NCBI RefSeq assembly: GCF_004792295.1
Contig: NZ_SRRY01000001.1
Span: 2,983,501-3,047,500, forward strand
Source of the DNA: Pseudoalteromonas sp. MEBiC 03607
GTDB taxonomy: Bacteria > Pseudomonadota > Gammaproteobacteria > Enterobacterales > Alteromonadaceae
Length of the DNA stretch: 64,000 nucleotides
Direction: 5' to 3'
The notes beneath the pieces are model-generated. The model saw nothing but the letters and a program-made list of their open reading frames with translations. It searched no databases and was not told where the DNA came from. The first letter of the stretch is position 1. Each line of letters begins with the position of its first letter. Shown in pieces: positions 12,432 to 33,027 of this stretch. A program made the position numbers and the translations under genes.

Positions 12432-12458
12432 AAAAAGGCCATTAAATGGCCTTTTTTA
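12432..12458 (+). terminator. ompW terminator
   Basis: Stem AAAAGGCCATT - a - AATGGCCTTTT running into six T residues, 30 bases after the ompW stop. Confidence 0.9.
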
Positions 12459-12733: not shown

Positions 12734-14947
12734 TTGAAAGTAATTGTCAATTCGTTAGTGTTGATTCTTTGCACAGCTCTAATCTCGTGCAAAGTAAAAG
12801 ATCCTAGTGAAGATAAACCGCAACAACAAAAGCAAGATACAATTAGTGATCGTGAAGCGCTAATTGCGGGCACCGCTGACATCGTATTTACTATTACCAA
12901 TGAAAATCAAACACCTCTCAACAATGTGAGCGTTGACGTTGCAGGTCAAGAGTACCTATCCGATGAAAATGGACGTGTTTCTATTAGCAACCTCTCTTTT
13001 GGTAATCACGCTGTTTTTATTGCACAATCAGGTTATTTCCCAAAGGCAGGTATTTTAGTAAACCAACCTAACTCTGTAACCTCACACATCCAATTAGAAA
13101 CACAATCAGCAAATTCAAAAAGCTTGTTATTTGCTGGTGATACAATGTTTGGTCGACGCTTCCTAGACCCCAATTTAGAGACGATGGGCACATCTGTACC
13201 TAATGTTAACACTGCGCTCATTCGACCTGACTCAGCCCGCGAAGATAGTATCGCCATAACCACAGAAGTTGCAGCGCTCTTTAAAGCTGCTGACTTTTCA
13301 TCGGTTAATCTTGAGTCACCTATTACGACAATGCCAACAACAGTTCATCCGACTAAAGAATTCAGCTTTTTCTCTTTGCCTGAATCACTGCAAAGCCTTA
13401 CTGAAATTGGTATTGATTATGTTGGCCTTGGTAATAATCACATCTATGACTATTTGCAAAATGGCCTTGAAGATACACTCCTTGAAGTGTCAAATGCAGG
13501 GTTCCTAAATAGCGGTGCGGGTTTAAGTGAAACTGACGCTTTTAAAACTGTCGAGCATAACCTTGATAATGTTAATTTAGTGCTCTTTGCTGCAACTTCA
13601 ATTACCGGAAAAGAACATCAATATACCTACGTTGCTGACACCAATAAAGGTGGGGCTGCTGATTTAACAAATTCAGCGGCAGTCAAAGCTGCACTTGAAC
13701 AGTTAGATCCTACTGACTTTGTCATTGCACAAATGCATGGTGGTGATGAATACTCGTATACTCCATCACCTTATATAGGTAGCCGATTTGAAGTTCTTTC
13801 TTCACAAAATACTGATCTACTAATTGGCCATCACCCACACATTGCCCAAGGCTTTGCTGTATTTAATGAAATACCAGCCATATTGGGCTTGGGTAACTTT
13901 GTATTTGACCAACCCAGACTTGATACCTTATTAGGCCTTGCAGTTCTGCTGGATCTTGATACGCAAAGCCAAAAAATCACTCGTGGTTTTGCTTATCCTA
14001 TTTATTTAGAAGACTATAAACCTCGATTCACCACTGGTTTTTTAAGTCACTATTTATTGAGAAGAATCGCCGAACTTTCTGATGACAATATTACGCTTGT
14101 TCCCCGAGAAAGCTACGCTGAAATATATTTTGCTGCAAATCAAGCAACAAAAAATACTCAGCAAGTGACTATCAACATTGATGCCAACACTGACATCATA
14201 GACTTGAGACAATATTCACCATCATCTGCTGCTTACGTTTCATCCATAGACGTTAATAGTGGTTCTTTAGATACGCTTTTAGTGGGCCGAGATATTATGG
14301 TCTTTGGCGATTTTGAAGATTGGGATAACGACGCAGACACCTTTGAAGTAAGTCGATGGGATCATAGCAGTGAAAGTGTGTTGCCTTGCACTGATAAGCC
14401 ATTCAATGGTTTGCAAGCTCTGTGCTCAACCCGTGATAAGTTTGACAACACTCCCTCTATTATTCCATTTAGACACACTATGCGGGTTATGGAGTTAACC
14501 GACGAAACAGGTGCACTAGAGTTAAGTAAAGACTTTTCATTACTGACCTATTTGCAATCTGAAAATGGTGGTCAGCTTGAGGCCTTGCTTACTTATACAA
14601 CAGAAATTGATGACCTTACCTTCGCAGAAAACCAAATTCCCGTTAGCGAAGGAGGTAATCAACCATGGCATGTTTTTAGCCATGACTTTAGTTTACCTTC
14701 TGATGAGTTAACACTTGGACCTAAAAAATTACCACCTCGTGGCGTAAAACTACAATTTAGGCACTATCCACCCAATACAGGAGAAGCGATCACGCGTCTA
14801 GATGATGTCGCAATGATCAGCTGGCAACAAAGTATCAACCTAGAAAACGGACAATGGAAGACCGATAAAATGCACGGTTTTGACTTTTTAAAAGTCAATT
14901 CAAGTAGTGAAGTGAGCTTAACGCTGACATTCACTGTACTTGATTAA
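12734..14947 (+). CDS. CapA/PgsA-like lipoprotein (metallophosphatase-fold capsule protein)
   Basis: 737 residues. The start is TTG at 12734, preceded by GAGGTG, and gives a lipoprotein signal with lipobox LISC (Cys 19). Residues about 50-115 form a carboxypeptidase-regulatory-like beta-sandwich (PLNNVSVDVAGQEYLSDENG). The CapA (PGA_cap) domain spans about 130-410 with LLFAGDTMFGRRF, FSSVNLESPI, GLGNNHIYDY, AQMHGGDEY, IGHHPHIAQGF and LGLGNFVFDQ. About 300 residues of unassigned beta-rich sequence follow. In Bacillus PGA systems CapA/PgsA is the third component, needed for synthesis or export. First gene of a seven-gene run, ending 9 bases before the next. CapA proteins also occur outside PGA loci; here the PgsC- and PgsB-like genes support the link. 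Confidence 0.82.
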   Translation: MKVIVNSLVLILCTALISCKVKDPSEDKPQQQKQDTISDREALIAGTADIVFTITNENQTPLNNVSVDVAGQEYLSDENGRVSISNLSFGNHAVFIAQSGYFPKAGILVNQPNSVTSHIQLETQSANSKSLLFAGDTMFGRRFLDPNLETMGTSVPNVNTALIRPDSAREDSIAITTEVAALFKAADFSSVNLESPITTMPTTVHPTKEFSFFSLPESLQSLTEIGIDYVGLGNNHIYDYLQNGLEDTLLEVSNAGFLNSGAGLSETDAFKTVEHNLDNVNLVLFAATSITGKEHQYTYVADTNKGGAADLTNSAAVKAALEQLDPTDFVIAQMHGGDEYSYTPSPYIGSRFEVLSSQNTDLLIGHHPHIAQGFAVFNEIPAILGLGNFVFDQPRLDTLLGLAVLLDLDTQSQKITRGFAYPIYLEDYKPRFTTGFLSHYLLRRIAELSDDNITLVPRESYAEIYFAANQATKNTQQVTINIDANTDIIDLRQYSPSSAAYVSSIDVNSGSLDTLLVGRDIMVFGDFEDWDNDADTFEVSRWDHSSESVLPCTDKPFNGLQALCSTRDKFDNTPSIIPFRHTMRVMELTDETGALELSKDFSLLTYLQSENGGQLEALLTYTTEIDDLTFAENQIPVSEGGNQPWHVFSHDFSLPSDELTLGPKKLPPRGVKLQFRHYPPNTGEAITRLDDVAMISWQQSINLENGQWKTDKMHGFDFLKVNSSSEVSLTLTFTVLD

Positions 14948-14956
14948 GGAGGAATT

Positions 14957-16852
14957 GTGGTTGTATTACAACAATTGTTGCGATTAACGCAACAAAGAGC
15001 CTTTTGGTTTACTGTTTGCTTATTTGCAATTGTGATTATCAGTAACCTGCTGAATTTATTTCAAGCAAGTAATGCCTTTTTATATAAAAAAATAGAATCT
15101 CTCAGTAACACTCAGCAAACAAATGTAGTGCTTATCACCAGTCAAAACCTTAGTGCTAACCATTCACAATTAGTCACCCAGCTTACAGAGTACCAGCCAA
15201 AAGCAATCATTGTTTTAGCAGATGAACCTTTAGCACCTGTAGACAATGAGCGTGTTTTCTACCCTTATTCGCTAAGTAAGTACTGTGTGCCAAATGTAGA
15301 GATTTGGGCAACATATCAAATGCGTATTCCAGCAGCGACTAACCTTGAGTGTGAAAGTGTGTGGCAAGCTGTTTTTGGTTATAAGCACGAAAAATCAAGA
15401 CTGATTAACTTTAAATTGGCAGTTTCTGCGCTACCTAAATTTACAGCTAAGCGAGTTCTTGGCTTTGATGTGATGAGTGAGCAACTCGAAAATAAAGTGA
15501 TTATTGTCGGTCAGCAATCAGCTGAATTTAATGTGCTGATACATGCCCCTAAATTAGAAGGGCTTAATGACCCCTTACTTCTTTTTGCTTATATCGCTGA
15601 TAGTCTAGAAAAAAACAGCACAATAAATGAGCTTAATTTTGTTATCTCGATAGTACTTGCGCTGATACTGGTATTTGTCCTACTGTTTTTCTTTCAAAAA
15701 ATGTCGATTAGTTATTCATTTTTAGTCGCACTAAGCATAACTATCATTTGGTGTTGCGCTGGCTATTTTTTAGTGAACTTTGCAAAGTTATTTATCCCTA
15801 TCGGCCAATACATCATTCTGACCTTTGTCACATTATTTTGGGTTGTGGTGGCGAGGAAGATTTCTGAAGATAAAGAGCTTACAACTGATGTAAATAACAT
15901 TCAGCAAATGATGATGGGCCGTTATATTCCGCAAAGCTTTATAGAGCACCCTTCTCCATGGGATCCCATAATACAATTAATTAGCCAACAGTTAGATCTA
16001 GAAAAATCAATTTTTTTAGCTCGAAAAGAAGACGACCATCGCGTCGTTGAAATTCGGGCTATCAACTGCCAACTTGATGATATTCAAGAAATGAGACGTG
16101 ACTATCAGCGAACGCCTTATAGTAATGCGTTAAAGTCATTGGGTATTGTAAAGATCAACCGTCCATTTTTTAAGCAAATCATTGAGGGTGAAATCGAGTT
16201 TATCGCACCACTGGTATATGCCGGAGATGTCCGTGGGTTTTGGGCTTTATCAATTATTCCTAATCATAACTTTAACCAACAAGCCTTTGAGCAAAACGTT
16301 AATAAATTTGCAGCTCAGGTTGCTGAACTACTATTCCATTACCATATTTTCAAAACAACACAGGCTAAAAACCGTACCTTATTAAACAGGCTACTCACCT
16401 TTAAGCTGCACGAGCCTATTAGCCAAAAGGTAAAAAGCTCCCTGAACGAAATGGAGCAAAAGCTTACTACCTTAGAGATGGTTTTTAACCACACAAGCCC
16501 AGCAACTGTGCTTTTTAATCTGTTTGGTCAAGTTATTCAAACCAATGCATCTTTAGAGCGTTTTGCTAAGCAGCATCAAATAGCTATTTTTGAAACCACT
16601 GCGCTTGATTTGCTGTGTAAAAGTTGTGAGCTTGATATTGAGATTGCAAAGGGTAAATTACGTTACATTACACTTAATAAAGCGACCGTTGAGCTTCCTG
16701 CTAAACTTGGTGCACATCATTACACTCTAATTATTAGAGCGCTTCATTCAGATAACTCGCAAACTGCATCAGGTGCACCTTTTCAAGTATCTGGAATTTT
16801 ATTTGAGTTTATAGCAAATACTCCTGAAATAACTTCGGAGGCTAAACTTTAA
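14957..16852 (+). CDS. CHASE2-like membrane sensor with GAF- and PAS-like regions, no output enzyme
   Basis: 631 residues. One N-terminal membrane helix (about 15-36) is followed by a periplasmic region of about 190 residues ending with LENKVIIVGQQS, a CHASE2-like block. Three consecutive membrane helices follow (about 228-300), the topology usual for CHASE2 proteins. The cytoplasmic part has a GAF-like region (about 335-470, including FIAPLVYAGDVRGFWALSI), a short coiled linker and a PAS-like region (about 510-610, FNLFGQVIQTNASLERFAKQ). I find no kinase, GGDEF, EAL or DNA-binding motif. GTG start at 14957 behind AAGGAGG. Its stop shares a base with the next start, so it is translationally coupled to the PgsC-like gene and probably senses or gates polymer synthesis. 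Domain calls are inference from pattern and topology. Confidence 0.6.
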   Translation: MVVLQQLLRLTQQRAFWFTVCLFAIVIISNLLNLFQASNAFLYKKIESLSNTQQTNVVLITSQNLSANHSQLVTQLTEYQPKAIIVLADEPLAPVDNERVFYPYSLSKYCVPNVEIWATYQMRIPAATNLECESVWQAVFGYKHEKSRLINFKLAVSALPKFTAKRVLGFDVMSEQLENKVIIVGQQSAEFNVLIHAPKLEGLNDPLLLFAYIADSLEKNSTINELNFVISIVLALILVFVLLFFFQKMSISYSFLVALSITIIWCCAGYFLVNFAKLFIPIGQYIILTFVTLFWVVVARKISEDKELTTDVNNIQQMMMGRYIPQSFIEHPSPWDPIIQLISQQLDLEKSIFLARKEDDHRVVEIRAINCQLDDIQEMRRDYQRTPYSNALKSLGIVKINRPFFKQIIEGEIEFIAPLVYAGDVRGFWALSIIPNHNFNQQAFEQNVNKFAAQVAELLFHYHIFKTTQAKNRTLLNRLLTFKLHEPISQKVKSSLNEMEQKLTTLEMVFNHTSPATVLFNLFGQVIQTNASLERFAKQHQIAIFETTALDLLCKSCELDIEIAKGKLRYITLNKATVELPAKLGAHHYTLIIRALHSDNSQTASGAPFQVSGILFEFIANTPEITSEAKL

Positions 16853-19800
16853 TGGATTTCGTTTTAGCGCTTTTTCCTGCAGGTAGTGGACTGGGCCAAT
16901 CAGTAATAACAACTGTTTGGGTCGGCACGGCTGTAGTGTGCCTACTGAATTTGCGCTTTGGTTTTCCACTCACAGGCCTTGTTGTACCTGGTTACATTGT
17001 GCCACTTTTGATAATAAGCCCCACCTCTGCCGCGGTGATTATTATAGAAGCAATTGTTGTGTTTGGGGTTATGCGCTTTAGTGCAAATTACTTGATGGAG
17101 CGTTTTGGCTACAGTGAAATGTTTGGCAGGGACCGTTTTTTTGCCATCATCCTAATTAGTATTTTAGTTCGTGTTTGTATGGATACCCTGTTTTGGCCAA
17201 TTATTGCAGATCAGTTGAGCCAATGGGATATCACTTTCGATTATGCATCACAACTTTATTCTTTGGGTCTTATCATCATCGCACTAACTGCCAATGTAAT
17301 GTGGAATGGTGGCTTTAAGTACGGCCTGAAAGTAACTTTCATTCAGTTGTTCATTACCTATATTTTAGTACGATTTGTACTTATGCCATTTACCAATTTT
17401 AGTATCGCTAACTTAGGTATTATGTATGAAGCTGTTGCCGCATCAATCATTGCAGCGCCAAAAGCCTATATTATTTTAGTTATTACCGCTTTTTTAGCTT
17501 CCAGAGCAAATTTAAAATATGGTTGGGAGTTCAATGGTATCATGCTACCAGCCCTATTAGCTTTGCAGCTTACCCAACCAAGTAAGATTTTAACCTCATT
17601 CATTGAAACAGCTGTTATCTTAGCCGTTGGCGGCTCTCTCATTCATTTCACTCGCCTAAAACATGCACATATCGAAGGTGCTAGATTATTGATGTTATTT
17701 TTTACTATAGGCTTTATCTTTAAGCTTATTTTAAACTATATCGTCGTTTGGTTTTTTCCAACGGTAAAAGTAACCGACACTTTTGCATTTGGTTACATGC
17801 TGGCCACCTTACTTGCCCTAAAGATCTATCAAAAAAATGCGTTAGGCCTTGTGCTCAGAGCCACTTTTCAAACATCTGTTGTAGGTGGAAGCCTTGCTAT
17901 TATTGTTGGCTTTTTAGTAATGCTTATCCCTTCTTTACTAACAAAACAAAATATTGATCCTGAAGCAGAACAGTTGCAAGTCATCACGCTCAATCAGCAA
18001 GTGAGTCAATACAAAAGCTACTTATATACTACGCGTTCCAATAAGGTAACCGTAAGTAGCTACAAAGCCAGTCAGGCAGTCTCTGATTTCAAATATGCGG
18101 TTTATCAGTTAAATGAAGCGATTAAAGGTAAGCAAAAAATAGGTCACCTTAGCGCTTTATTTAACTCTATCGGGTTTAAACTTGTTAGTGATGAAAACTA
18201 TGTATACCTAATAGATATTGTTGAGAATCAGCAACGCGGTTTATTTGTGATTAACAAAACGCCACAAACGCCACTCATGATCACAGTTCCGTATCCTATC
18301 ACTGAAAATCTTGCTAGCGACTCTGCAGCCCTTATTTTTCAGCATCTAAAAAGTAAAGCTTTAGTATTTGGGGCAACAAAAACGCCTCAAATAACATTAG
18401 CGAAGGAAAACCAGCAAAGCCCTTTTTACCAAGCATTTATTAACGCATTAGAGGCGCAAGAATTATTGCAAGTTCGTGAATCTAACCGCTACACCGCAGC
18501 TTTACTAAAAAGCACGCCTGCTGAAGTTAAAAGCCAGTATTGGATCTTTAATCGACTTCCGCCCTCTATAAGCCAACGCGAAATGCATGAGTTTATCGGC
18601 AGTGAAGCCACTTATTTTGGTAAGGCAACAGCGAGTAGCTTACCTTCGAGTAGTTTTAAAGGGTCTATGCTAGAAGTCTTTCTTAATGGAGATAATTACA
18701 CCAACATATTGGCGTATATATACCGTGAAAATTACCGTTATAGCAATTTAAAACTCAACATAATCAATGAAGAAATGGTCAAAATTGTCGAAGATTTCTC
18801 ATCGTATATAAGTAGTAAAGGCAGTCTCAATTATCAACCACTGACACACAGCCAAGTTGCGCTTTGGGAATTTGAAGTACTAACACCACTATATAGATTG
18901 ATACAGCAAATCGGCAATGCCTCACTGAACGAGGATATTTTAAATCACCTGAAGCAGATAAATGGCACTGCAGAGTTACTTAACTATCAGTTACAACTAG
19001 TACAGAATAATAGTGGCCGATATTTACTATTAAGTCCCTTACAAAATAATGAAGCAATGGATCTTGGCCAAGGTCTGTATGCGTTTGCGCTTAGCAAACA
19101 TGAAGCAATAAGTTTAAGCGTGCCAAGACCTGTTTTTGAAGGAAATACACTTAGTTTTGCCAGCCAACTTTTTACGACTTCAAATGCCGCTAACTTATTA
19201 ATTGCAGGAGCACACCCATATGCTCACCCGAAGGCTAATGTACTTGCTGCAGACAACGTCGATTCATTATTCAATATCGTCCATCAAAGCTATTCGCGTT
19301 TTAAAGCACAACAACCGAGCTTAAATATCCAAATTCGCAGCCACAGTGCTCCGTCATGGATCCGCCCTAATGCAATTGCATTTTCAAATACTCAGGTAAG
19401 TGACGTTGCTGCCCCTTTAATGGAAAAACTAACCAAAGACTTAAGCATTTTAGGTGTTAATTACCAAGTAGTAACGGGCCAAAAAGCCACTCGGGGTCTT
19501 GAGATTGGTAGCTCACCGCAATATGGCTATCAACAGTTTAATGCAAACAGCGAGCTCGCTACTTTATGGATAGCCTCAGACTTTAAAGAACAGTTTTCAA
19601 TGGATCAAGATAGTTTGCTTATGCGCCTTCTTGCGATTTCTACTTATCCAACAGTCACCACTATTAACCTAGCCACTTTATCTCCTTCTAACTGGTTAAC
19701 GTTACCTGACAGCGATAAACAAATTATCTTTAGAAAAATTAATCAATATACCGCCGATAAGCAAATTGCTGTACTGAAAACAATATGTTCAGAGCTTAAT

Positions 19801-19965
19801 GAGTGCGTATTACAAACCATAAAATTAGAAAATTTAGATAAATTCGCACTGATGATCAAGCAGCACAATAGTCTAGTCGCTATATATAATCCGGCGAGCA
19901 ATCAATTGATCGATGTGGATGTTTTCAACAAAATGATGGGGGGAGGCTTTGATGTATCTAATTAA
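16852..19965 (+). CDS. pgsC: PgsC/CapC-like membrane protein, internally duplicated, with large periplasmic extension
   Basis: 1037 residues, against about 150 for classical PgsC/CapC. Residues 1-365 are membrane-embedded and contain two copies of a PgsC-like unit. Copy 1 (about 36-180) has RFGFPLTGLVVPGYIVP and ALTANVMWNGGFKYGLKVTF. Copy 2 (about 223-355) has KYGWEFNGIMLPALLAL and ALKIYQKNALGLVLRATF. The TG-x-VxPGY motif is best kept in copy 1. Residues about 370-1037 are soluble and probably periplasmic. They contain two related blocks, about 455-515 (GLFVINKTP, ITVPYPITEN) and about 725-915 (GLYAFALSK, LSVPRPVFEG, TLWIASDFKEQF), which resemble the separate amidohydrolase-like gene at 22209. 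It overlaps the next gene by 14 bases. The family call is firm for the membrane part; the symbol is by homology. Confidence 0.75.
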   Translation: MDFVLALFPAGSGLGQSVITTVWVGTAVVCLLNLRFGFPLTGLVVPGYIVPLLIISPTSAAVIIIEAIVVFGVMRFSANYLMERFGYSEMFGRDRFFAIILISILVRVCMDTLFWPIIADQLSQWDITFDYASQLYSLGLIIIALTANVMWNGGFKYGLKVTFIQLFITYILVRFVLMPFTNFSIANLGIMYEAVAASIIAAPKAYIILVITAFLASRANLKYGWEFNGIMLPALLALQLTQPSKILTSFIETAVILAVGGSLIHFTRLKHAHIEGARLLMLFFTIGFIFKLILNYIVVWFFPTVKVTDTFAFGYMLATLLALKIYQKNALGLVLRATFQTSVVGGSLAIIVGFLVMLIPSLLTKQNIDPEAEQLQVITLNQQVSQYKSYLYTTRSNKVTVSSYKASQAVSDFKYAVYQLNEAIKGKQKIGHLSALFNSIGFKLVSDENYVYLIDIVENQQRGLFVINKTPQTPLMITVPYPITENLASDSAALIFQHLKSKALVFGATKTPQITLAKENQQSPFYQAFINALEAQELLQVRESNRYTAALLKSTPAEVKSQYWIFNRLPPSISQREMHEFIGSEATYFGKATASSLPSSSFKGSMLEVFLNGDNYTNILAYIYRENYRYSNLKLNIINEEMVKIVEDFSSYISSKGSLNYQPLTHSQVALWEFEVLTPLYRLIQQIGNASLNEDILNHLKQINGTAELLNYQLQLVQNNSGRYLLLSPLQNNEAMDLGQGLYAFALSKHEAISLSVPRPVFEGNTLSFASQLFTTSNAANLLIAGAHPYAHPKANVLAADNVDSLFNIVHQSYSRFKAQQPSLNIQIRSHSAPSWIRPNAIAFSNTQVSDVAAPLMEKLTKDLSILGVNYQVVTGQKATRGLEIGSSPQYGYQQFNANSELATLWIASDFKEQFSMDQDSLLMRLLAISTYPTVTTINLATLSPSNWLTLPDSDKQIIFRKINQYTADKQIAVLKTICSELNECVLQTIKLENLDKFALMIKQHNSLVAIYNPASNQLIDVDVFNKMMGGGFDVSN

Positions 19966-22219
19966 ACGCTTCTTCGCTATCTTAGTTCTTATAATTGTAT
20001 TGTTAACAGCCTTATTTGCTTGGAATAGCTTTTTAATTTGGCTAGATTCTGCTGAGCCAGTTAACCCCCAAACCAGTAAAGAAACTCGCTCAAAAGTACA
20101 GTGGCTTAGTAGCACAAAACCACTGACTTATACATTTTCAAATCAGCGAACACACTCACTTAGGATCTTATCAAACGCCGTATTTGATCAGTCTGTCACT
20201 CTTGAACAGCCGGTAAATTACGCCATCAAATACACTCTTTATAATGACAAGAAAGAGGTGATTGTAGATAAAGTTTATCACCACGCTTCAAAGTTAGTTA
20301 ATAACAGTCAAGATCAACAAATTAAGCAAATCATTGAAAATAAGCAGTCTTTGAATGTGGCTTCTGGGCAATCATTTTACCTACCCATTAAACATTACCC
20401 ACAAGCGAAAAGCTTAGCACTTACACTTATTCCTGAAGAAAAGACAATTCAAGGAGTGGTAGTTCGAGTGCATGCTAAAACACCTGACCAAAACGTTGAT
20501 CCACTCAATAGTTGGCTAAAACGCCCCGTCGATAGACGTAAACGTGCAACTGATTACCTCACGATGGGTGAAAATACCTTAACAAATACTGAAATAACGA
20601 ATGCAATGGCGTTTTGGTGGCAAAAAATAGCGCCACAAGGTATTCCTGGAATCGACTTTAAATCAGATATTCTTTATGAAAGCTTACCGTATAATGTACT
20701 AACCTATGATTTTAGTCAGCAACAGCATAGTCTTGCTGCTTACTATACCAAACATGGTTTATGCGCCAGTATCACATTAGACAATAGTGATCGTTTAAAT
20801 TTCACTGTTAGTAATGACCAAGAGACTCCGTCATTAATCTGGTATGACAAACTTCAGTTTGAAGCACCAAAAGTTATAAATTACACGCTAACAGATAAAG
20901 AAAACACATATCAAACTCAGCCTCTTGAGCCGGGATTAATTACAATTTGCAGTGAGCAAGAGCTGCTAACCCAATGGCGAACTGAATCTGGTACCGCTAT
21001 TTTAACAAGTTATGCTGGTAGTTACCTGATTAATGCGCAAGAGCACGTAGAGTTCGATGTTGTGCCATTAAGCCATTTGAACCTTGAGCTCAGGGCTCTC
21101 GAAACGAGTCAATTAGATATTTCTCTATACGATGAAAACCAAATCCAAATAGATCGTTACTCTATTACGATCAAAGGTGAAATCTCTGACTTTGATCGAT
21201 TAATAGCAGACAACACTCAAAGACAAGTCGTAGGTATGCTTACCCCCTACTACCTTCGTACTGGGAAAGAGACAAAATATGTAAAAATTACGGCTAATAA
21301 CGATGTGTACGTGCGATTGAAATCAAGACTCGCGAGTTTTCATTATCAACGCCGAATTGCACACCAGCCAATTCTTACTGAGTCTACTAATGGCTTTTAT
21401 GATATTGCAGCATGGTATGAACAAAAAGCACGTAATCACTATGACTTATCGCAACGTGATCTGTTTGTAAATATTCGTACATTTGCTCCGCCTCCAGATG
21501 TTGAGCAAACTACAACATATTACCAATCTAAAGAGCTTTTCAATCTGTTACCACTATCAAATGTGGCTCTTGGGTTAAGCCCGAACCGTTATTATGAGGA
21601 ACAGCAACCTGCAGAGGAGTTTAATTTTGGACTCTATGATAAAAATCAGGCTATTCCCTCTGCTAGCTCAAATGATAACCGCTTAATCTCTCGATTAAAT
21701 AGTAACAGTGCAAAAGAACTTAAAACTGATGACATCTCATTTGCTGATCAACAGCAGTTAGTTAACGAAGCCAGTGTAATTTATCAAAATTGGTATGGTC
21801 ATCGCCCATGGGTAAAACAGCGCCTTTATCAATTGGTTAAAAATAAGCCAGTGAAGCTATCATATGATAAAAAGAAACGTCCAATTAGCATTGTTTTTAA
21901 AGTATTTCGTGCCCAAAGCAATGAACCTGTAACTTTAAACATTTCGCATTCTGCAAAATACAAGCTTGGGCTTACAAGTGAATACAGTATTGCGAAGCAA
22001 AGTTTCCAACTTCACAACTCTGAACTATTAAAGTCTTTTTTGATCCATCCTAAAAAAAGTCAAATAACGAGTTACCCGAGCGTTACACTCAATCTAGCTA
22101 ATGATATAGAGACACTGCAGTATGTGACTTTAAGTTCTTCAGAAACAATTTGGTTGTCTATACTTGAAGAGTACCCAATGCAGGAGCAAAAAGTAAGGTG
22201 GTGGAATAATGAACTTTAA
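19952..22219 (+). CDS. Anchored periplasmic protein of the PGA-like operon, function unknown
   Basis: 755 residues from ATG 19952, chosen over the TTG one codon earlier because of the strong GGGGGGAGG just upstream. One membrane helix at about 5-28 (FFAILVLIIVLLTALFAWNSF) is followed by about 725 residues that look periplasmic and beta-rich, with no membrane segment. Short blocks such as GKETKYVKITANNDVYVRL resemble GQYLTIRSHTDAYVKI in the 1424-residue protein two genes downstream, hinting at a shared beta-sandwich module. I do not recognise a family. Overlapping both neighbours (14 and 11 bases), it belongs to the same operon. A role bridging inner-membrane synthase and outer-membrane exit is plausible but is inference. 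Confidence 0.7.
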   Translation: MYLIKRFFAILVLIIVLLTALFAWNSFLIWLDSAEPVNPQTSKETRSKVQWLSSTKPLTYTFSNQRTHSLRILSNAVFDQSVTLEQPVNYAIKYTLYNDKKEVIVDKVYHHASKLVNNSQDQQIKQIIENKQSLNVASGQSFYLPIKHYPQAKSLALTLIPEEKTIQGVVVRVHAKTPDQNVDPLNSWLKRPVDRRKRATDYLTMGENTLTNTEITNAMAFWWQKIAPQGIPGIDFKSDILYESLPYNVLTYDFSQQQHSLAAYYTKHGLCASITLDNSDRLNFTVSNDQETPSLIWYDKLQFEAPKVINYTLTDKENTYQTQPLEPGLITICSEQELLTQWRTESGTAILTSYAGSYLINAQEHVEFDVVPLSHLNLELRALETSQLDISLYDENQIQIDRYSITIKGEISDFDRLIADNTQRQVVGMLTPYYLRTGKETKYVKITANNDVYVRLKSRLASFHYQRRIAHQPILTESTNGFYDIAAWYEQKARNHYDLSQRDLFVNIRTFAPPPDVEQTTTYYQSKELFNLLPLSNVALGLSPNRYYEEQQPAEEFNFGLYDKNQAIPSASSNDNRLISRLNSNSAKELKTDDISFADQQQLVNEASVIYQNWYGHRPWVKQRLYQLVKNKPVKLSYDKKKRPISIVFKVFRAQSNEPVTLNISHSAKYKLGLTSEYSIAKQSFQLHNSELLKSFLIHPKKSQITSYPSVTLNLANDIETLQYVTLSSSETIWLSILEEYPMQEQKVRWWNNEL

Positions 22220-22952: not shown

Positions 22953-25900
22953 TCGCTTTTATAACACTTACGCTGCTAGCCTTTAAACCTGCTCATGCTG
23001 AACAGCAAGAGCATGCAGTACTTCAGCCGCCGATTTGGTTAAAAACTTCACCTAAATTAGATGTGCTGGCAACGACACAAAAGATACAAGTTGATTCTTT
23101 TGAACACCAATATTTATGGCTACCTGAAGGGCATTGGTTGGAGATCAACTCAGAACTGTTAGATAAGTTCATTATGAGTGTAGGCAACACACAATATATT
23201 CAGCAACGGATACAACTGGAACGAGACTTACTGTGTTCTAATAACCGCTGCCAACTTCCGGCCTTAGGCCACAACCGTATTGTGGCAATTCAAAACCGTC
23301 AGGATGAACAGGCTGAGTTTTCAGCTTTAGTTGGCCACTATCAAACAAAAATTGATAGCTTTAAACGCGCATTAAAACTTGCCAAACCTTCAATATTACT
23401 CTCTTCAAGGCAAGGCAGTGAACGTTTTTATAAATTCGATAAAGGCGAAGAAGTTACTCTTTACTTCCCTGATGCTAAAAAAATTAAGCTTTCTGTTAGA
23501 AAAAATATGCAATCACTGGAGCGCCACGGCGCTGTGTATGCCTATGTTGATGAAGTACTCACAGCAAAAGTAAACATCATTAATAACCAAGCTCTTGAAT
23601 ATCAAGATCAACAAGTAGGTCTGGTAAATAGTGACTATTTAGCCATTAATGCAGGGCAATATTTAACGATAAGAAGCCACACAGATGCTTACGTAAAAAT
23701 AACACAAAGCCATCGAGCTATATTCGATGACACAACAGCTAACAAAACCAAGGAAAAGTTGCTGCTACCTTACTGGTTAAAAACCGCTAATGACGCGATG
23801 GAATCAGTTTACAGTAAATATTCCCTCAACGTTTTTAGTGATGACGTATTTACGCACAATGAGCCTTTGGCTGTAAAACGCCATTATGACTTGCTTTCTT
23901 TAATGTCTACTCAGACTCTACTAAAAGGCAGCAGCGTAGTGCATGCCTCTACATCATCAAAAAGTGTTCTAATCACTGAGCTTGAAGAACAACGATTAGT
24001 TGATGATCAGTTTTATCCTCGCATTAATAAGCAAGTTAGGGATATTACATCACTTTCTCAAGTCCCCCTTCGTTATGACTTATCGAGTCAAAAACGTGCG
24101 ACCCCTTGGCTTACATTTGTAGCTCGAAGCGATGAAGATAGTCAGTTAAAACTGACAGCTGGTGGCATGAGCTGGTTAATAAATATCAAGGCAACACAAC
24201 ATTACCAAACGATTAGTGTGTCAGTTCCTGTAAACCACAAAACCATGACAATTCAAAAAACTACTGACGACGTTCCCGTTATTGAGTTTGCAGTTTATGC
24301 TCGAACACTCACTGATTTTCCTAGTAACGAAGTACTCTACTTACAACCTGGAGCTCTTGATCAGAACAGCCCTATCACAGCTCAACTGGTAACTAACCAC
24401 TTAAGAAAGTTATATAGTGACTATCTTGCGATGATACAGCCCTATGCGCCAGCAAGGAGAAAAGTTAAGTTACTAAATTGGCAGCAATCTATGCTAACCG
24501 CTAAGGATTTAGCTAAATCGGCACCATTAGATGCACTTGCCTTTTTAAAACCATTAACGCAAAACCCCGATCCATCAGTCGCAGAGCAAGCATGGCAAGT
24601 TAAAATAGATATTTTACGTGAACAACACCAGTTTCATCTTGCTACGAGTTATTTAGAAGGACTATATAAAAGTACGCAACAAAAGGAATTGCAACAGTTT
24701 GCATTAAGATCGCTATTAGAAACTTATCAAGCCGAACAGCAAGAGCTTAAACTGTTTGCGCTATGTGCTGGTAACCTAAATATATTAAGCGAGTGCAGAA
24801 ATATACTGATCGAACTTGCAACTAAGCAACAGAAAAACCGACTTGCGCTTTGGCTTGCACATCAAGCAGAAGAAACTCAGATTGCCGAACAAAGTTATAC
24901 GGCTCTAAACTACCATAGTTTGAGCTCTACGATAAAAGCCGAAAATAAACAGTATGAATTACTTTCGGGTGCGCAAGAAACGTTAATAAATTCACAAGGG
25001 AAGTTGCAAAACACCGTACTCTCTCAACATATGCCTTGGCAATATACAGCATTAGAACCAGTCCACCTGAGCATAAGTGCACGGACTGAAGCCAAGCAAA
25101 ATGGCGAGTATCAAACCGCATGGTTAATGGCTGATAGTGAATACCAGCATAAATTAATACCAATCTTTAGTGATATACCTTCAAACACATTGGTCGTTGA
25201 AAGCCAACAAGCAGCCTCTGTTTCTTCAACGATGATCGTTAGTCTGCAAGCTGGAGAAACACTTAATTTATCAGCAGATCAGAAGACCTTTCTAGATGTC
25301 AAAGATATCTCTGATTCGTTATTTACACGATTTGAGTATTATTCTGATGCTACGAACAAAGTAATCACAGGCGATATTATGTCGCTAATTTATGCTTATG
25401 ATGCAACACAACGTGAGCTGTTAATTAATGGCCTATATTTATTATCTAAAAAGCGTTTAAACAATAATGAATACACGCAACTATTACAGCGGATCGCTAC
25501 AATACCCGCCTCCGCTTCATTGACCTTTTTACAAAATAGAATAGAAAGTTTTGGTCACTGGCAACCTCTAGATAGCCTTGTAGATTATGCTGGTACACGC
25601 CTTTTCGATATCCAAAGTTCTGCACAAACTAGCTTTGCTGATAGGTTTAACCAATTCAAAACGCATTTAAAAAATAATGAAGGATTATTGATTCGACCAT
25701 TCCACACACTTTACATAGATTTAGCTCAAACAGAGGGAGAACAAATTCGTTTCGTATTTAGTTTTTCTACTGCAGAGCTGGCTCAAGCTAATGTGGCAAA
25801 CTTATCTATAAAACTCGCTAACAATTTAAAAATATGGTCAGTTACCGAGCAGCAGAGCATTCCTTTTACATTTAACAAACAAGAGCTAGATAATAACATT

Positions 25901-27211
25901 ATTGCCCTTCACTGGCTTAATCCCTATTTATCTCAGCAACTAAAAGTTGAAGCACAACAATATATTGCAGGTCGTTGGAGAAAGTTAGATTTACCCACAA
26001 CCATGCTATTTTATTCTGTAGTTCCTAACACACCACTAGTGGCAACGTTGAATGCAGATCGCTTGATTAAATTAGAGAAAATGAATAACTACAGTCGTAA
26101 CGAACGTCAATTTTTCCACCCAGCAGGAAAAATTGAAGTCAAAGCCGCTGAGCTTGAGCATGTACGCCTTTATACATGGGAACTGAGTGATCTTAACAAT
26201 AAGATTTCAGAGTTTACTCAAGCGCAAATTCCTTTGCCAGACTTAGTCACTTATCAAGCACCTGAGCAGCAAAAAATAGTAAGTGAGCAAACATCATTTC
26301 AAAGTGATGATTTAAATTGGCAAGCTTTCATTCTTTACGATCAACAAGAAATATTTCAGAGCGCTGAAAATATCCCAACGCGACGAGACATTGATGTTGG
26401 TGCTCGCTTACGTATTAACGACGAAAACAATTGGTATCAATTAGAAGGCTATTATTCATTTAGTGAAAACCAGACAGACATAATGGCACTTAATGGCTAT
26501 TATTCATGGCAAGATGATACAACCCCCTGGTATGCGGGTGCGCAACTTCAAAGCCGCTGGCAACCAAGTCATGATGGCTTTGACAGTCAATATGCTCTTG
26601 ATGGCAGCCTTTATGTTGGGCAAAAATGGCAACGTGACTCAACACATCGCCATCAATGGCAACTGTCACCATTTATTCGCTATAGCAGCGCTGATTTAAA
26701 CGATTATCTCCGTGACGACTTACTTAATTCAAGTGTGTTCAATTTTTATCGTGAAAACCATGCATCTGGTTGGCAGGGATTTTATCAATACCGCTATCAA
26801 CCTTGGGTCGACAATTATTTAAATTTTAGTGTTTCATCCAGTTCAAATGATGATTGGACAAGCCTAGATTATTTACGCTTCAACACAAGCTGGAACCAAT
26901 ATTATCATGACCATATTTTCCAACTCGGCATTGATAGTTATTACCGCTTTAAAGATGAAAACCGTGCTACAGCCACTTGGCAATACATCACACAATTTGC
27001 TTGGCAAACGCAAATTAATTTAGGTGATTTCTCGCATGGTTGGTTAAAGGTTCGATTACAACAGGATTGGGTATGGGATAACCACAATATAAGTATCGAA
27101 TTTTCATCAGGTAATAATCAGCATACAGGTTTTGCCCCTTTTGCACATGATGAAATTATATTCCCAACACTTCAGTTAAATCATTTGCTAGAGCACAGTG
27201 ACTATGAGTAG
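22937..27211 (+). CDS. Large exported protein with helical repeats and C-terminal beta-barrel-like region, probable outer-membrane polymer exporter
   Basis: 1424 residues. Signal peptide 1-21 (ending PAHA). Residues about 160-480 are beta-rich. Residues about 510-670 are helical and repeat-like (LLNWQQSMLTAKDLAKSAP onward), similar in character to TPR or Sel1 solenoids. From about 1150 to the end the sequence alternates polar and aromatic residues in short segments (WYQLEGYYSF, LNGYYSWQDD, WYAGAQLQSRW, FYQYRYQPW, YLNFSVSSSSND), as expected of outer-membrane beta strands. The layout parallels BcsC and PgaA: signal, helical repeats, barrel. The C-terminus (HSDYE) lacks the usual terminal aromatic residue, which is a caveat. 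It overlaps its neighbours. No named family recognised. Confidence 0.6.
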   Translation: MPYFIIAFITLTLLAFKPAHAEQQEHAVLQPPIWLKTSPKLDVLATTQKIQVDSFEHQYLWLPEGHWLEINSELLDKFIMSVGNTQYIQQRIQLERDLLCSNNRCQLPALGHNRIVAIQNRQDEQAEFSALVGHYQTKIDSFKRALKLAKPSILLSSRQGSERFYKFDKGEEVTLYFPDAKKIKLSVRKNMQSLERHGAVYAYVDEVLTAKVNIINNQALEYQDQQVGLVNSDYLAINAGQYLTIRSHTDAYVKITQSHRAIFDDTTANKTKEKLLLPYWLKTANDAMESVYSKYSLNVFSDDVFTHNEPLAVKRHYDLLSLMSTQTLLKGSSVVHASTSSKSVLITELEEQRLVDDQFYPRINKQVRDITSLSQVPLRYDLSSQKRATPWLTFVARSDEDSQLKLTAGGMSWLINIKATQHYQTISVSVPVNHKTMTIQKTTDDVPVIEFAVYARTLTDFPSNEVLYLQPGALDQNSPITAQLVTNHLRKLYSDYLAMIQPYAPARRKVKLLNWQQSMLTAKDLAKSAPLDALAFLKPLTQNPDPSVAEQAWQVKIDILREQHQFHLATSYLEGLYKSTQQKELQQFALRSLLETYQAEQQELKLFALCAGNLNILSECRNILIELATKQQKNRLALWLAHQAEETQIAEQSYTALNYHSLSSTIKAENKQYELLSGAQETLINSQGKLQNTVLSQHMPWQYTALEPVHLSISARTEAKQNGEYQTAWLMADSEYQHKLIPIFSDIPSNTLVVESQQAASVSSTMIVSLQAGETLNLSADQKTFLDVKDISDSLFTRFEYYSDATNKVITGDIMSLIYAYDATQRELLINGLYLLSKKRLNNNEYTQLLQRIATIPASASLTFLQNRIESFGHWQPLDSLVDYAGTRLFDIQSSAQTSFADRFNQFKTHLKNNEGLLIRPFHTLYIDLAQTEGEQIRFVFSFSTAELAQANVANLSIKLANNLKIWSVTEQQSIPFTFNKQELDNNIIALHWLNPYLSQQLKVEAQQYIAGRWRKLDLPTTMLFYSVVPNTPLVATLNADRLIKLEKMNNYSRNERQFFHPAGKIEVKAAELEHVRLYTWELSDLNNKISEFTQAQIPLPDLVTYQAPEQQKIVSEQTSFQSDDLNWQAFILYDQQEIFQSAENIPTRRDIDVGARLRINDENNWYQLEGYYSFSENQTDIMALNGYYSWQDDTTPWYAGAQLQSRWQPSHDGFDSQYALDGSLYVGQKWQRDSTHRHQWQLSPFIRYSSADLNDYLRDDLLNSSVFNFYRENHASGWQGFYQYRYQPWVDNYLNFSVSSSSNDDWTSLDYLRFNTSWNQYYHDHIFQLGIDSYYRFKDENRATATWQYITQFAWQTQINLGDFSHGWLKVRLQQDWVWDNHNISIEFSSGNNQHTGFAPFAHDEIIFPTLQLNHLLEHSDYE

Positions 27212-30200
27212 TAACGGACTTACAAAACGCCTTGAAAATTTGCTTTTCGCAGATATTGCCAGTTTCTGGTTAGATTTATATCGTCAAAAATACCGCGAAC
27301 TCGTAGATGAATTAAGTCAATGGGAGCTAATCAAGGATCAGCCTGAAGATTATGACGAAGATGACTGGCTATTACTGCAAGCCATTGCATTTTTAACTCA
27401 TAAAATAGATACCTTACAAAATCAATTGACCAAGCTTGATAGCGATCACAGACGCTTTATTGAACGTTTAAATCATGCTGAGTTAAAAGCGGAAAGACAA
27501 TTTCATATTTTAGACTATGCAGCAGCGCTTGGCGCAAGCAAATTGCAACTGCAAAAGGATCAAGAGGCATTTCAACGTTGGTTTGATGAAGGAGCCATCG
27601 TAAACCGATACCAAGATAAAGTCTCTGAGCTTGAGCAATCATTGAAATTCTTAATAGGTAAACTAGGTGATCTAACTAATCGTTATTTACGTATTCACTC
27701 GGGAGAAATAACTAAATCATGGTTAACACTTAACTTAGAAAGTTTCTTTTTAGGTTTATTAGAAAAAACTGAGAATGAAGCAATTCGTAACTCTATTTTT
27801 CGCGCTCTTGCCAACCAAGTTAATTTAATTAGTGAATATGTCGGCGAAACTAAGTTCGATTCCAATCTTGTTGAGCTACTACTGTTTTCTCTTGAGAAGC
27901 AATCAACACCTCATGCCGCTAAAGTGGATATTTTAGAGATCCTGATCAATTTAAGACCCACTTTTACCCGCTATTTTATGCGTTCACAAATTGATTTAGA
28001 TGTCTTGCCAAATGCTAAAGTAGAACGACAACATTTGTTTCTACTGACATCTTTTTCAAAAATTATATGTAAACAACCAAAATTAAATGAGGCTAATTAT
28101 AAATTACTAATCTTGCTTGCAAAACACGCCTATCCCCGTGTAAGACAGAGTGTTATTGAACAATGCCCACTATTACAGTGGCCTTTTGCTATCAAGCTTT
28201 TAATAGTTCGCTTACAAAAAGAAACTCAACAAGCTGTAAGGCTGACACTCATCAAGCAATTAACAGATCCTCGTTTTACCGAAGAGCTACAATCGTTTCA
28301 TATATGGCGCCAACAGTTAAAAAAAGTACAAAGCTTTGCAGAAAAACGATTGCTGTTGGAGCTTACGCCACGGATCATGTTTAATTTACAAGTTGAATGT
28401 GAAGAGCAAAATCAAGCAGATATATTATTTAAGTCATTTATTAATGTATTAAATAAACAACTTGAGAATGAACAAAGTAATGCCGTCAGACGCGTTATTA
28501 CCCGTGTTCGAGAGCAGTTAGTCAGCTTTATGTATCAGCAACAAGTTGCTGAGATCGAATTTAATTTAAACTCTCATTTAGATATAAATTTAAGCTCGAA
28601 GGAGATAGAGCAAGATTTACTTGGCCGACTTTTAAGCAAACAAGCACAAAATAATGAAGCCTTCAACGTAAAAGAAAAAAGTAAAAGCTATCTAATAACA
28701 AGGGGATATAAGCGTGGTTTCCGCTTTTGGCGGCTCTGGCACGAATTTAGAAACCCAAGCACAGGAAAACGCCAAAGTTTTAATCATACACAAGCTAGAA
28801 AGCCAAGTGCATTTATGCACGTCCCGAGCTGCACTGTTGCAGAGATCAGCAAAACAGAAGTGCCTGGCGAGCCTCGCTTCGATGATAAGCAGTTCAGCGC
28901 TCGACCACACTTACCCATGCTTGATTTTTTATTAAGTATTTTGTCGCAGGATAACTTAAAAACACCTGCAAAATCATTTACACCTGATGGTATTTTAGTT
29001 ATCACGCCACCCTCTAACATACTCAAACGTATGTATGCGTATAGTTGGATTTCATTCAACTTTGAAAAATTAGATGATCTACGAAATGGTTCAGAGGTTG
29101 AACAGCGAGATTTCTTAGATCTCATAAGAAGTAAAGGTTTTGTACTTGAATTTCAGCAATATGGGTCTGTTCTTGATGCAGAGTTTCCAGTGGAATCAAG
29201 TATTGCCAACTTATATAAGAAACTATCTATAACGCCTTTTTTATTCAATATGTGGGCAAGTTTTAAAGAGTATGCCTATTCACTTTATCAAAATAGTATT
29301 GGCCAATTAATCTTTTTTGTTTTGGCTTTTTCTACATACTTTTGGGCGCGCCATATTAGGATAAGTAAACAAATAAAATCGGATAGAGCAAAGATCCCCG
29401 TTTCAATCGGTGGCTGGGGCACCCGGGGTAAATCAGGAACTGAACGCTTAAAAGCTGCATTATTTAGTAGTTTAACCTTAAAAGTAATAAGTAAAACAAC
29501 AGGTTGTGAAGCTACACTTATTTATGCAAGAGCAAGTGGAGAGCAGTTCGAAATTCCATTGTTCAGACCTTTTGATAAAGCGAGTATTTGGGAACAAAGT
29601 GATGTACTTCATTTTGCAACAAACGTGAAAGCTGATGTATTTCTTTGGGAATGTATGGGGTTAACCCCACGTTACGTGAAAATTTTAAGAAACTGGATGA
29701 ATGATAATTTCTCTACGATTACCAATGCTTATCCAGACCATGAGGATATTTTAGGGCCAACAGGAATAGATGTCGCAAATGAAACAAGTCATTTTATTGG
29801 TGAAAATAGCCTAGTATTCACCAGCGAACAAAATATGGCTCCAATTCTTGACTTAAATGCGAAACAAAAGAACTCAAATTTAATTCAAGTACATTGGGCT
29901 GATAGCTTACAAATAACAGAGGACATACGCTCTCTTTATCCATACCAAGAGCACCCTGCCAACATCGCACTGGTTTGTAAAATGGCTGAGCATATAGGCT
30001 TAAATAAAGACTATGTATTTAAAGAAACATCAGCACGAATTGTTCCAGATATAGGTGTATTACAACATTTTGCCAAAGCACCAATTGCAACAATAAGCCA
30101 ATCATTCGTAAATAGCATGTCCGCAAACGAGCGATTAGCAACATTAGAAAATTGGCAACGTCTCAATATATATCAATTAAACGACGATCCTAAAACTCAG

Positions 30201-31283
30201 GTCATCGCACTAATTAACAACCGTAATGATCGTGTTGCACGTTCAAAGGTATTTGCCTCAATATTAAGCAATGATCTCCGCTTTGACCGAATCGTAGTGA
30301 TTGGTAGCAATGTAGATGGATTTTATAGCTATTTTTTAGATGCGCTCACAGAGAGAGTCGATAAGTTAATTGAAATTAATGATATTGAAAACTTAGAGAC
30401 ACTACTAGAGCAATTTAACCTACTCACAGGCTCACAAGTAAAGGCGAGGCTAAGTAGTGCTTATGGCAGCATGATAGCAGAAAACCTTCTCACCCTAAGC
30501 GAAGGAAGTGTCAATAAGTCTTGTATAAAAGAAATCACCGGAGACATTTCATCTCAAGAAATCGCGACTATTCTCTATACCCTGCGCCACTACTATCAGC
30601 GTATAGCTTTAGATTCTTTAAAGGGTGATATGCAAAAGTACAGGGATGAGATAAAAGAGCGATTAATTTTAATCACAAAGTCAAAAGTTACTCTACTTGA
30701 CGACAGCAACATATCCGCAGATGAGATAACCAAAGCTATTGCAAACCTAGCTTTACCGAATACCCATCAAGTGATTGTGGGCATGCAAAATATTAAGGGA
30801 GCGGGATTAAATTACGTATACGCTTGGCAACAGTGGCAAAAGGTATCTCAAACTATAACAAAAATGCTGAGCAAACATTGCTCTGCAAAAGAATTTAGAA
30901 CGGCATTAACAAACTTAAATATGATTGTATCATTTAATTTATTAGAAATAGATTATTTAAAGCAAAACTTAGTTACTCTTAAGAAAAGCCAGCTTGCACA
31001 AAATGAGTTTTGCCAAGCTGAAATAACTGCTCTTCAAGAGAAAATTTCTAGCGATAATACGTCAGTAAACGAAGAGAATTCGCAACCTCGTGCACTTCGT
31101 TATTTAAATCAAATGATCGAATCATTTTTAGATGCAGGTGCTGCTGTTAAGCGTAAAAAGCGAGCCATTCAAATTTATGATGATATTGCTGAAAAACGCA
31201 TAACATTAGAAAAAGCGATAAAATTACTTAGTGAGATGAATCGAAACCAAAGCTCAGGGTGGTTTACTAAGAAATCGAAATAA
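27204..31283 (+). CDS. pgsB: Giant PgsB/CapB-like amide ligase with N-terminal helical extension
   Basis: 1359 residues from ATG 27204 (GTG at 27198 also possible), against about 390 for Bacillus PgsB/CapB. Residues 1-440 are helical, with coiled-coil-like sequence at 60-140. A membrane helix lies at about 698-717 (IGQLIFFVLAFSTYFWARHI), directly before the ligase domain. Mur-ligase-type ATP-binding motif GGWGTRGKSG is at about 736-745, then SKTTGCEATLIYA, FLWECMGLTPRYVK, and TNAYPDHEDILGP at about 839-851. The C-terminal ligase part keeps NSMSANERLATLENW and LINNRNDRVARSK. These are PgsB landmarks. PgsB joins glutamate through the gamma-carboxyl using ATP. A further 300 residues follow. It overlaps the previous gene by 8 bases. 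The family is secure; the amino acid used is not. Confidence 0.8.
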   Translation: MSSNGLTKRLENLLFADIASFWLDLYRQKYRELVDELSQWELIKDQPEDYDEDDWLLLQAIAFLTHKIDTLQNQLTKLDSDHRRFIERLNHAELKAERQFHILDYAAALGASKLQLQKDQEAFQRWFDEGAIVNRYQDKVSELEQSLKFLIGKLGDLTNRYLRIHSGEITKSWLTLNLESFFLGLLEKTENEAIRNSIFRALANQVNLISEYVGETKFDSNLVELLLFSLEKQSTPHAAKVDILEILINLRPTFTRYFMRSQIDLDVLPNAKVERQHLFLLTSFSKIICKQPKLNEANYKLLILLAKHAYPRVRQSVIEQCPLLQWPFAIKLLIVRLQKETQQAVRLTLIKQLTDPRFTEELQSFHIWRQQLKKVQSFAEKRLLLELTPRIMFNLQVECEEQNQADILFKSFINVLNKQLENEQSNAVRRVITRVREQLVSFMYQQQVAEIEFNLNSHLDINLSSKEIEQDLLGRLLSKQAQNNEAFNVKEKSKSYLITRGYKRGFRFWRLWHEFRNPSTGKRQSFNHTQARKPSAFMHVPSCTVAEISKTEVPGEPRFDDKQFSARPHLPMLDFLLSILSQDNLKTPAKSFTPDGILVITPPSNILKRMYAYSWISFNFEKLDDLRNGSEVEQRDFLDLIRSKGFVLEFQQYGSVLDAEFPVESSIANLYKKLSITPFLFNMWASFKEYAYSLYQNSIGQLIFFVLAFSTYFWARHIRISKQIKSDRAKIPVSIGGWGTRGKSGTERLKAALFSSLTLKVISKTTGCEATLIYARASGEQFEIPLFRPFDKASIWEQSDVLHFATNVKADVFLWECMGLTPRYVKILRNWMNDNFSTITNAYPDHEDILGPTGIDVANETSHFIGENSLVFTSEQNMAPILDLNAKQKNSNLIQVHWADSLQITEDIRSLYPYQEHPANIALVCKMAEHIGLNKDYVFKETSARIVPDIGVLQHFAKAPIATISQSFVNSMSANERLATLENWQRLNIYQLNDDPKTQVIALINNRNDRVARSKVFASILSNDLRFDRIVVIGSNVDGFYSYFLDALTERVDKLIEINDIENLETLLEQFNLLTGSQVKARLSSAYGSMIAENLLTLSEGSVNKSCIKEITGDISSQEIATILYTLRHYYQRIALDSLKGDMQKYRDEIKERLILITKSKVTLLDDSNISADEITKAIANLALPNTHQVIVGMQNIKGAGLNYVYAWQQWQKVSQTITKMLSKHCSAKEFRTALTNLNMIVSFNLLEIDYLKQNLVTLKKSQLAQNEFCQAEITALQEKISSDNTSVNEENSQPRALRYLNQMIESFLDAGAAVKRKKRAIQIYDDIAEKRITLEKAIKLLSEMNRNQSSGWFTKKSK

Positions 31284-32765: not shown

Positions 32766-32781
32766 ATACATTTGATATTTT

Positions 32782-32808
32782 AATGCCAGTTTAATACTGG
32801 CATTATTT
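32782..32808 (+). terminator. Terminator after paralogue 1
   Basis: Stem AATGCCAGT - ttaat - ACTGGCATT followed by ATTTC. The ATGCCAG core recurs in the terminators of the other two paralogues. Confidence 0.75.
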
Positions 32809-33016: not shown

Positions 33017-33027
33017 GAAATTTCCTA
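33017..33027 (+). promoter_or_regulatory. Shared element GAAWWTTCCTA, copy 2
   Basis: GAAATTTCCTA, 79 bases before the TTGAAA of the paralogue 2 promoter. See copies 1 and 3. Confidence 0.45.

Follow-up and report, generated by a model that had tools for sequence, protein, structure and literature searches.

A conserved, envelope-spanning PgsBC-type operon in Pseudoalteromonas: probable secretion machinery for a gamma-linked amino-acid polymer

A 64,000-nucleotide stretch of the 4.56 Mb genome of Pseudoalteromonas sp. MEBiC 03607 (contig NZ_SRRY01000001.1, positions 2,983,501 to 3,047,500; hereafter the window, in whose coordinates all positions are given) carries a seven-gene operon on its plus strand, at 12734-31283. 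On the basis of homologies, structure models, gene order and co-occurrence, this operon is a real, conserved, envelope-spanning system of the PgsBC type. It is likely to encode a synthase-dependent secretion machine, similar to BcsABZC, for a gamma-linked amino-acid polymer that is most likely poly-gamma-glutamate (gamma-PGA); we infer the glutamate, the route of the polymer and the role of each step.

Poly-gamma-glutamate is most familiar from the slime of natto. The route of a gamma-linked polyamide through the outer membrane of a diderm is undescribed as far as the literature was searched (full text, with few subscription journals and no preprints). No description of an assembled system of such parts was found there, nor any co-mention of 'PgsB' and 'HEAT repeat', and an earlier note on the window, made from its sequence alone, had likewise known of no characterized example with this composition. 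The same note had placed classical PGA capsules in Gram-positives. PGA systems reach further: in excerpts of a survey they occur across most phyla, with capB and capC mandatory and capA and capE accessory (PMC5542703), and a reference title credits Fusobacterium nucleatum with the first demonstration of polyglutamate production in a Gram-negative. The survey may have counted some loci of the present kind and left their extra genes undescribed. The operon provides a full parts list that is open to gene-by-gene testing, ties the polyglutamate field to that of exopolysaccharide secretion, and points to gamma-PGA in marine bacteria.

The synthase, its companion proteins and the proposed export path

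The seven open reading frames (ORFs; 737, 631, 1037, 756, 247, 1424 and 1361 amino acids, aa) are spaced, from gene 1 to gene 7, by 9, -1, -17, -11, -16 and -14 bases. The tight packing described in the earlier note is therefore borne out, with one short gap and overlaps at all other junctions, and the landmark motifs of PgsB, PgsC and CapA that it listed are found in the translations. A terminator-like hairpin at 12432-12456, 3' of an OmpW-type gene (1 found against 0.2 expected), sets the operon apart from that upstream gene. The same genes come back in the same order in the genus and in distant genomes, and the arrangement is thus not a matter of chance.

Gene 7 (27198..31283, plus strand) encodes a PgsB-like ligase fused to an N-terminal region of about 650 residues. 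Its ligase domain (residues 722-1071; 29361..30410, plus strand) matches positions 17-356 of the 380 in TIGR04012 with an E-value of 9.5e-63 and 212.2 bits, slightly under the curated cut-off of 222.7, and for this reason we file the protein as PgsB-like and not as an equivalog. A P-loop of the form GxRGKS and an NxxPDHxD-type motif, which we take to be the signature of PgsB ligases, are both present, and GTRGKSGTER and PDHED are invariant in 32 of 32 aligned relatives (picked from 120 among the matches listed, out of 219 relatives found by sequence search with the whole protein). The best named relatives are Pseudoalteromonas proteins with 73% identity. Several relatives are already automatically annotated as 'poly-gamma-glutamate synthase PgsB', so that the name is known already and it was the system that called for study. 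The N-terminal region may be HEAT-like, as precomputed annotation of the HEAT families PF13646/PF02985 on some relatives suggests; a Pfam scan of gene 7 in the window gave no match to a HEAT family, and a sequence search of solved structures returned nothing useful. Among plasmids in PLSDB, nine records match PgsB, none of the nine covering more than 80% of the query.

Gene 3 (16852..19965, plus strand) is a PgsC with a doubled CapC unit and a large C-terminal region. It passes the gathering cut-off of PF14102 CapC with ease (110.4 bits in two stretches, against 27) and misses the equivalog cut-off of TIGR04011 (49.7 bits, against 96.45), so that a profile search of the kind proposed in the earlier note yields significant matches for both PgsB and PgsC. 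The two CapC-like repeats (residues 1-372; 16852..17967, plus strand) align to each other in hhalign with P 4.6e-5 and a probability of 68.5%, a pair without a shuffle control. Bacillus PgsC has five membrane helices, according to excerpts of PMC6029982, and two repeats would therefore give ten. The earlier note had the core proteins enlarged three- to seven-fold, which is a rough figure: PgsB is about 3.6-fold the length of its family model (380 positions), PgsC is about 8-fold the length of its own (132 positions), and CapA is nearer 2-fold, relative to the Bacillus protein.

The C-terminal region of gene 3 consists of two domains (residues 375-640, 17974..18771, and residues 641-1037, 18772..19962, both on the plus strand) that are related to the product of gene 5. 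In hhalign they match the gene 5 family with P 6e-13 and 1.3e-16, respectively (0.4 and 0.59 against a gene 4 profile as control), and each other with P 1.2e-21 (0.4-0.84 in five shuffles). Across the alignment (40 of the 45 sequences at hand), the site of gene 5's second zinc histidine is taken by an arginine in both domains (Arg542 in 38/40 and Arg829 in 40/40). The first zinc-histidine site is Ala in 16, Tyr in 8, Phe in 5 and His in 2 of 40 sequences in the first domain, whereas at position 759 of the second domain 32 of 40 sequences have Arg, 4 keep His and 4 have another residue. The acid between the two sites is retained, mostly as Glu (Glu 36 and Asp 4 at position 763 of the second domain). 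With the zinc histidines mostly replaced, and with arginine at the clearest site, the two domains look like inactive copies of the hydrolase, a fold that would thus have been reused within a synthase subunit. They are tied to the PF05908 proteins through gene 5 alone, since direct comparison fell short of significance (P 0.048 and 0.54). With PgsC as the query, whether as a single sequence or as a profile, searching solved structures by sequence gave nothing useful.

Gene 5 itself (22209..22952, plus strand) encodes a candidate hydrolase, exported and with the PghP/N-formylglutamate amidohydrolase fold, and from its model we consider it a candidate gamma-PGA hydrolase. Its fold and zinc-site residue pattern match this group, and His78, Asp82, His146 and Glu222 are invariant (alignment of 39 of the 67 sequences at hand). 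The PghP/YndL gamma-PGA hydrolases (PF05908) have the fold and the His-acid-His-Glu pattern in common with gene 5. They differ in having Glu where gene 5 has Asp, and gene 5 is exported, operon-borne and too diverged for the Pfam model: the window copy has no Pfam or NCBIfam match, 2/39 relatives match PF05908 (best E 0.014, short of the gathering score), and a rescan of ten chosen relatives gave none, so that gene 5 could not have been placed by the PF05908 model alone. The genome of the window has no match to PF05908 or PF05013 at all. A sequence search of solved structures with the gene 5 profile was of no use, and it was fold comparison that later placed the protein. For the PF05908 comparison, four of five matches were aligned, the fifth being left out for a stop within the match.

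Gene 6 (22937..27211, plus strand) has a signal-peptide-like N-terminus and is a probable outer-membrane channel. The model of residues 490-1424 (pLDDT 87.1, pTM 0.62) contains a helical solenoid (residues 490-656, from DSSP; 24404..24904, plus strand) followed by a predicted 14-strand beta-barrel (residues 1127-1393; 26315..27115, plus strand), which gives substance to the outer-membrane channel proposed in the earlier note and is the solenoid-then-barrel build of the BcsC/PelB/PgaA exporters. The profile of the solenoid part matches designed pentatricopeptide repeat (PPR) proteins (best 7.8e-8). Neither gene 6 of the window nor two relatives scanned match PF05420 or another BcsC-type Pfam family, and no NCBIfam match was found for gene 6; a Pfam match to Bunyavirus NS-s (E 0.022) was taken as chance. 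The alignment comprises 58 of the 63 sequences at hand. At six distant loci (L019, L022, L023, L051, L067 and L009) gene 6 lies in two ORFs, as if encoding separate proteins.

Gene 4 (19949..22219, plus strand) has one N-terminal membrane helix, by hydropathy, and then a large, probably periplasmic region, and is a candidate scaffold. The window copy belongs to no Pfam or NCBIfam family, 3/37 relatives (37 of the 69 sequences at hand were aligned) match CarboxypepD_reg (best 7.3e-5), and its profile found nothing useful by sequence among solved structures. Of the two periplasmic proteins named in the earlier note, gene 4 thus keeps its place and gene 5 is re-read as the candidate hydrolase. 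The gene 4 copy at L075/L132 has 1636 aa, double the usual length.

The operon has a PgsB ligase, a PgsC membrane protein and a PGA_cap protein in common with Bacillus PgsBCA/CapBCADE, from which it differs by the large N-terminal fusion on PgsB, by a doubled PgsC to which two domains of the gene 5 kind are joined, and by its additional envelope proteins; Bacillus lacks an outer membrane. The Bcs cellulose exporter and the Pel, poly-N-acetylglucosamine (PNAG) and alginate exporters combine an inner-membrane synthase, a periplasmic hydrolase and a solenoid-plus-barrel outer-membrane protein in one operon, with barrels of 16 strands in BcsC, PelB and PgaA and 18 in AlgE. The layout is alike in the operon described here, as known from genes and models; the product would be an amino-acid polymer, and the gene 6 barrel, with its 14 strands and no Pfam match to BcsC, is unlike those of BcsC, PelB, PgaA and AlgE. 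A PgsB-PgsC-PgsW locus of Cetobacterium (Fusobacteriota) likewise has PgsB and PgsC together in a diderm host, but with a short PgsB (376 codons), a short PgsC, PgsW and gamma-glutamyltransferases; nothing annotated like genes 4-6 lies in the 19 kb viewed, for which the gene table is possibly incomplete. A further locus, L139 on Chroococcidiopsis plasmid pCHRO.01, combines a short pgsB and a PgsC/CapC of 333 codons with a nearby HlyD-type adaptor and metallophosphoesterase, and is perhaps another diderm export solution.

In the mechanism we propose, PgsB (gene 7) would use ATP to lengthen the chain at the inner membrane, and the doubled PgsC (gene 3) would work with it and pass the chain across that membrane, the arginine-bearing pseudo-hydrolase domains perhaps holding the polyanion. 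The membrane-anchored gene 4 product would scaffold the periplasmic path, the gene 5 hydrolase, in the manner of BcsZ or AlgL, would trim or clear chains that go astray in the periplasm, and gene 6 would convey the chain over the periplasm and, by way of the 14-strand barrel, out to the surface of the cell. Output or the D/L ratio may be tuned by CapA (gene 1), and gene 2, with its kinase half lost, may sense an envelope signal. The earlier proposal of a self-contained PgsB/PgsC-type synthase with an envelope-spanning exporter is supported, and the gene 6 model and the hydrolase fold of gene 5 strengthen it. It is tempting to speculate, as something quite conceivable rather than probable, that the operon represents a class of trans-envelope machine for an amino-acid polymer in several diderm phyla, in which PgsC absorbed two hydrolase domains whose zinc sites became arginine-lined polymer-binding sites, so that inactive copies guide the chain and the active gene 5 polices it.

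Gene order and spread

Within the genus, 57 of 99 Pseudoalteromonas genomes have PgsB together with gene 6 and the other 42 have neither; the two genes occur in the same 57 genomes row by row and are adjacent by coordinates in all 57. Genes 2-7 lie together in 19/19 neighborhoods and gene 1 in 16/19 (20 of the 57 PgsB carriers were sampled, and L097, of 2.5 kb, was left out). In a draw from the class, the long PgsB is rare (6/369 genomes, the window's own included).

A distant set was obtained by scanning one genome per species with a long PgsB from outside Pseudoalteromonas and keeping the best 80 of 340 loci, which are not a random sample. Going by record titles, and with many metagenome-assembled genomes among them, we take these to belong to the Gamma-, Beta- and Alphaproteobacteria, Desulfobacterota-type bacteria, Nitrospirae, Planctomycetota, Verrucomicrobia and Holophagae/Acidobacteria. 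By ORF calls and profiles, gene 7 was recognized at all 80 loci; gene 6 follows with 64 loci, genes 3 and 4 with 53 apiece and gene 5 with 52, and gene 2 was seen at 15 loci and gene 1 at 4. The 10 kb flank and the shortness of some contigs limit these counts. Gene 7 is an ORF of more than 1000 aa in 80/80, the loci having been sought with the long form. Gene order was counted in the 56 loci that extend upstream by 9 kb or more (24 of the 80 were left out, and a gene split over two ORFs was counted as one): 40 of them have the exact order 3-4-5-6-7, and 16 differ. The expectation that the genes stay together in relatives thus holds for genes 2-7 in the genus and for genes 3-7 in most of these distant loci, and not for CapA, which is sometimes missing.

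Gene 6 was not recognized within the stretch in 8/56 loci (L042, L044, L052, L062, L065, L072, L073 and L079). In two of these loci, both acidobacterial, gene 6 and a PGA_cap gene are found further along (L130 for L073, L131 for L079), as is gene 5 in one of the two. The alphaproteobacterial loci L065 and L072 have genes 2-3-4-5-7 with a short gene 4 and no gene 6 by profile, and their outer-membrane part may differ. Two long PgsB genes are present in G127, the genome of L073, and G132 has a second long PgsB with a stop.

Alternative products and routes

Several points weigh against the reading of this operon as a gamma-PGA exporter, and our confidence in it is slightly lowered because the fold matches of genes 5 and 6 are of limited specificity. 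The most credible alternative, although still an unlikely one, is that the machine is as described and its polymer is something other than plain poly-gamma-glutamate, such as a chain of a different amino acid, one of mixed gamma-glutamyl composition, or glutamate residues attached to some other molecule. N-formylglutamate amidohydrolases fit the gene 5 fold with equal or higher Z, carboxypeptidases come close behind in Foldseek, and PgsB scores under its equivalog cut-off. On the other side, the first Foldseek match of gene 5 is PghP, and in VIA three of its five best rows are gamma-PGA hydrolases.

That the polymer stays in the periplasm or is tied to the envelope (as an osmolyte, a metal buffer or an anchored layer), with a different role for gene 6, is less probable again. 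In fold comparison the gene 6 model is nearest the plain porins OmpG and CymA, and only then PelB and BcsC, so that its barrel is closer to porins than to exporters; passage through the outer membrane is a prediction, and gene 4 has no useful match. Against this stand the co-occurrence of gene 6 with PgsB, which none of the 99 genomes breaks and in which the two are always side by side, and the solenoid that precedes the barrel, a build known from PelB and BcsC.

We give very little credence to the Pseudoalteromonas operon being a decaying relic, as might be read from the loss of the receiver and of the kinase half of gene 2 (the kinase region is absent from 20/20 genus copies) and from broken frames in PgsB (G060, G089), gene 6 (G060, with one stop inside the match in four other genus genomes) and PgsC (two ORFs in L087), for PgsB is free of stops in 55/57 genomes, genes 2-7 are kept together in all 19 neighborhoods, gene 5 shows no variation at its key residues, and the gene 6 stop of G051, one of those four genomes, looks terminal, the same gene 6 being one 1433-aa ORF in L090.

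Accessory genes and genomic setting

Gene 1 (12734..14947, plus strand) is CapA/PgsA-like. Around residue 19 it has a lipobox-like LISC, and a PGA_cap domain spans residues 131-393 (PF09587, 157.1 bits against a gathering cut-off of 27); the MslH epimerase model NF038314 is matched weakly (E 3.6e-6 and 25.6 bits, where the cut-off is 700). Of the 99 Pseudoalteromonas genomes, 50 have an ortholog (E 1e-160 or better), all 50 among the 57 PgsB carriers, and the remaining seven carriers have no gene 1 match at 1e-20. Weaker matches (9e-52 to 6e-23) occur in six genomes of the genus that lack PgsB, and G098 contains an additional weak match. Among 35 of the 80 distant genomes searched for PGA_cap, where draft assemblies may miss genes, 20 have a match. 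In 6 of the 20 (G099, G107, G119, G122, G127 and G130) it shares a contig with PgsB and is no more than 20 kb away, and in the others it is elsewhere in the genome. CapA as an essential core member was dropped on these counts (50/57 and 20/35). Its place in the seven-gene machinery, as first described, holds for most carriers in the genus, and with 6/35 distant genomes having it near PgsB, it is accessory. In excerpts of PMC6029982, pgsBC are sufficient and PgsA shifts the D/L ratio; earlier work quoted there had all three pgs genes essential.

Gene 2 (14957..16852, plus strand) is a CHASE2-type membrane sensor without its kinase half. The CHASE2-like sensor of the earlier note is upheld through a relative and not through gene 2 itself, which scores 17.9 bits, under the cut-off of 26.3. 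Gene 2 is homologous to proteins of about 900 aa with CHASE2 and HATPase_c: one relative has CHASE2 at 57.1 bits, HATPase_c at 28.4 bits and HisKA at 17.6 (under cut-off), and a second one scanned has HATPase_c alone. A profile of the part beyond the end of gene 2, built from 6 of the 33 rows, finds the kinase region in 33/37 distant rows (L075 and L132 being one gene) and in 0/20 Pseudoalteromonas copies, the window's included. The four distant rows without it are three weak matches elsewhere in their loci and one 679-aa copy. In upstream regions from 24 of the 35 genomes (downstream or flanking stretches were taken for 3), a gene 2 relative adjoins PgsC upstream on the same strand in 22/24, the exceptions being L108 and L119, and a small receiver-like ORF lies between the two in 13/24 (one was checked and confirmed by Pfam). 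Judged from these sequence comparisons, Pseudoalteromonas has lost the kinase module of gene 2 and, in the 19 neighborhoods, the receiver.

Directly 3' of the operon, at 31533-36469, are three DUF642/choice-of-anchor-C-type paralogs with 63-65% identity to each other across most of their length, the third with an additional N-terminal copy of the DUF642/choice-of-anchor-C-type domain. A cellulose locus (39403-53648; BcsG, BcsE, BcsQ, a cellulose-synthase-type glycosyltransferase, BcsB, GH8 and BcsC) starts about 8 kb downstream of the operon, placing two matrix-exporter loci side by side, and past it, at 55415-58162, lies a gene for a 915-aa calcineurin-like phosphoesterase protein.

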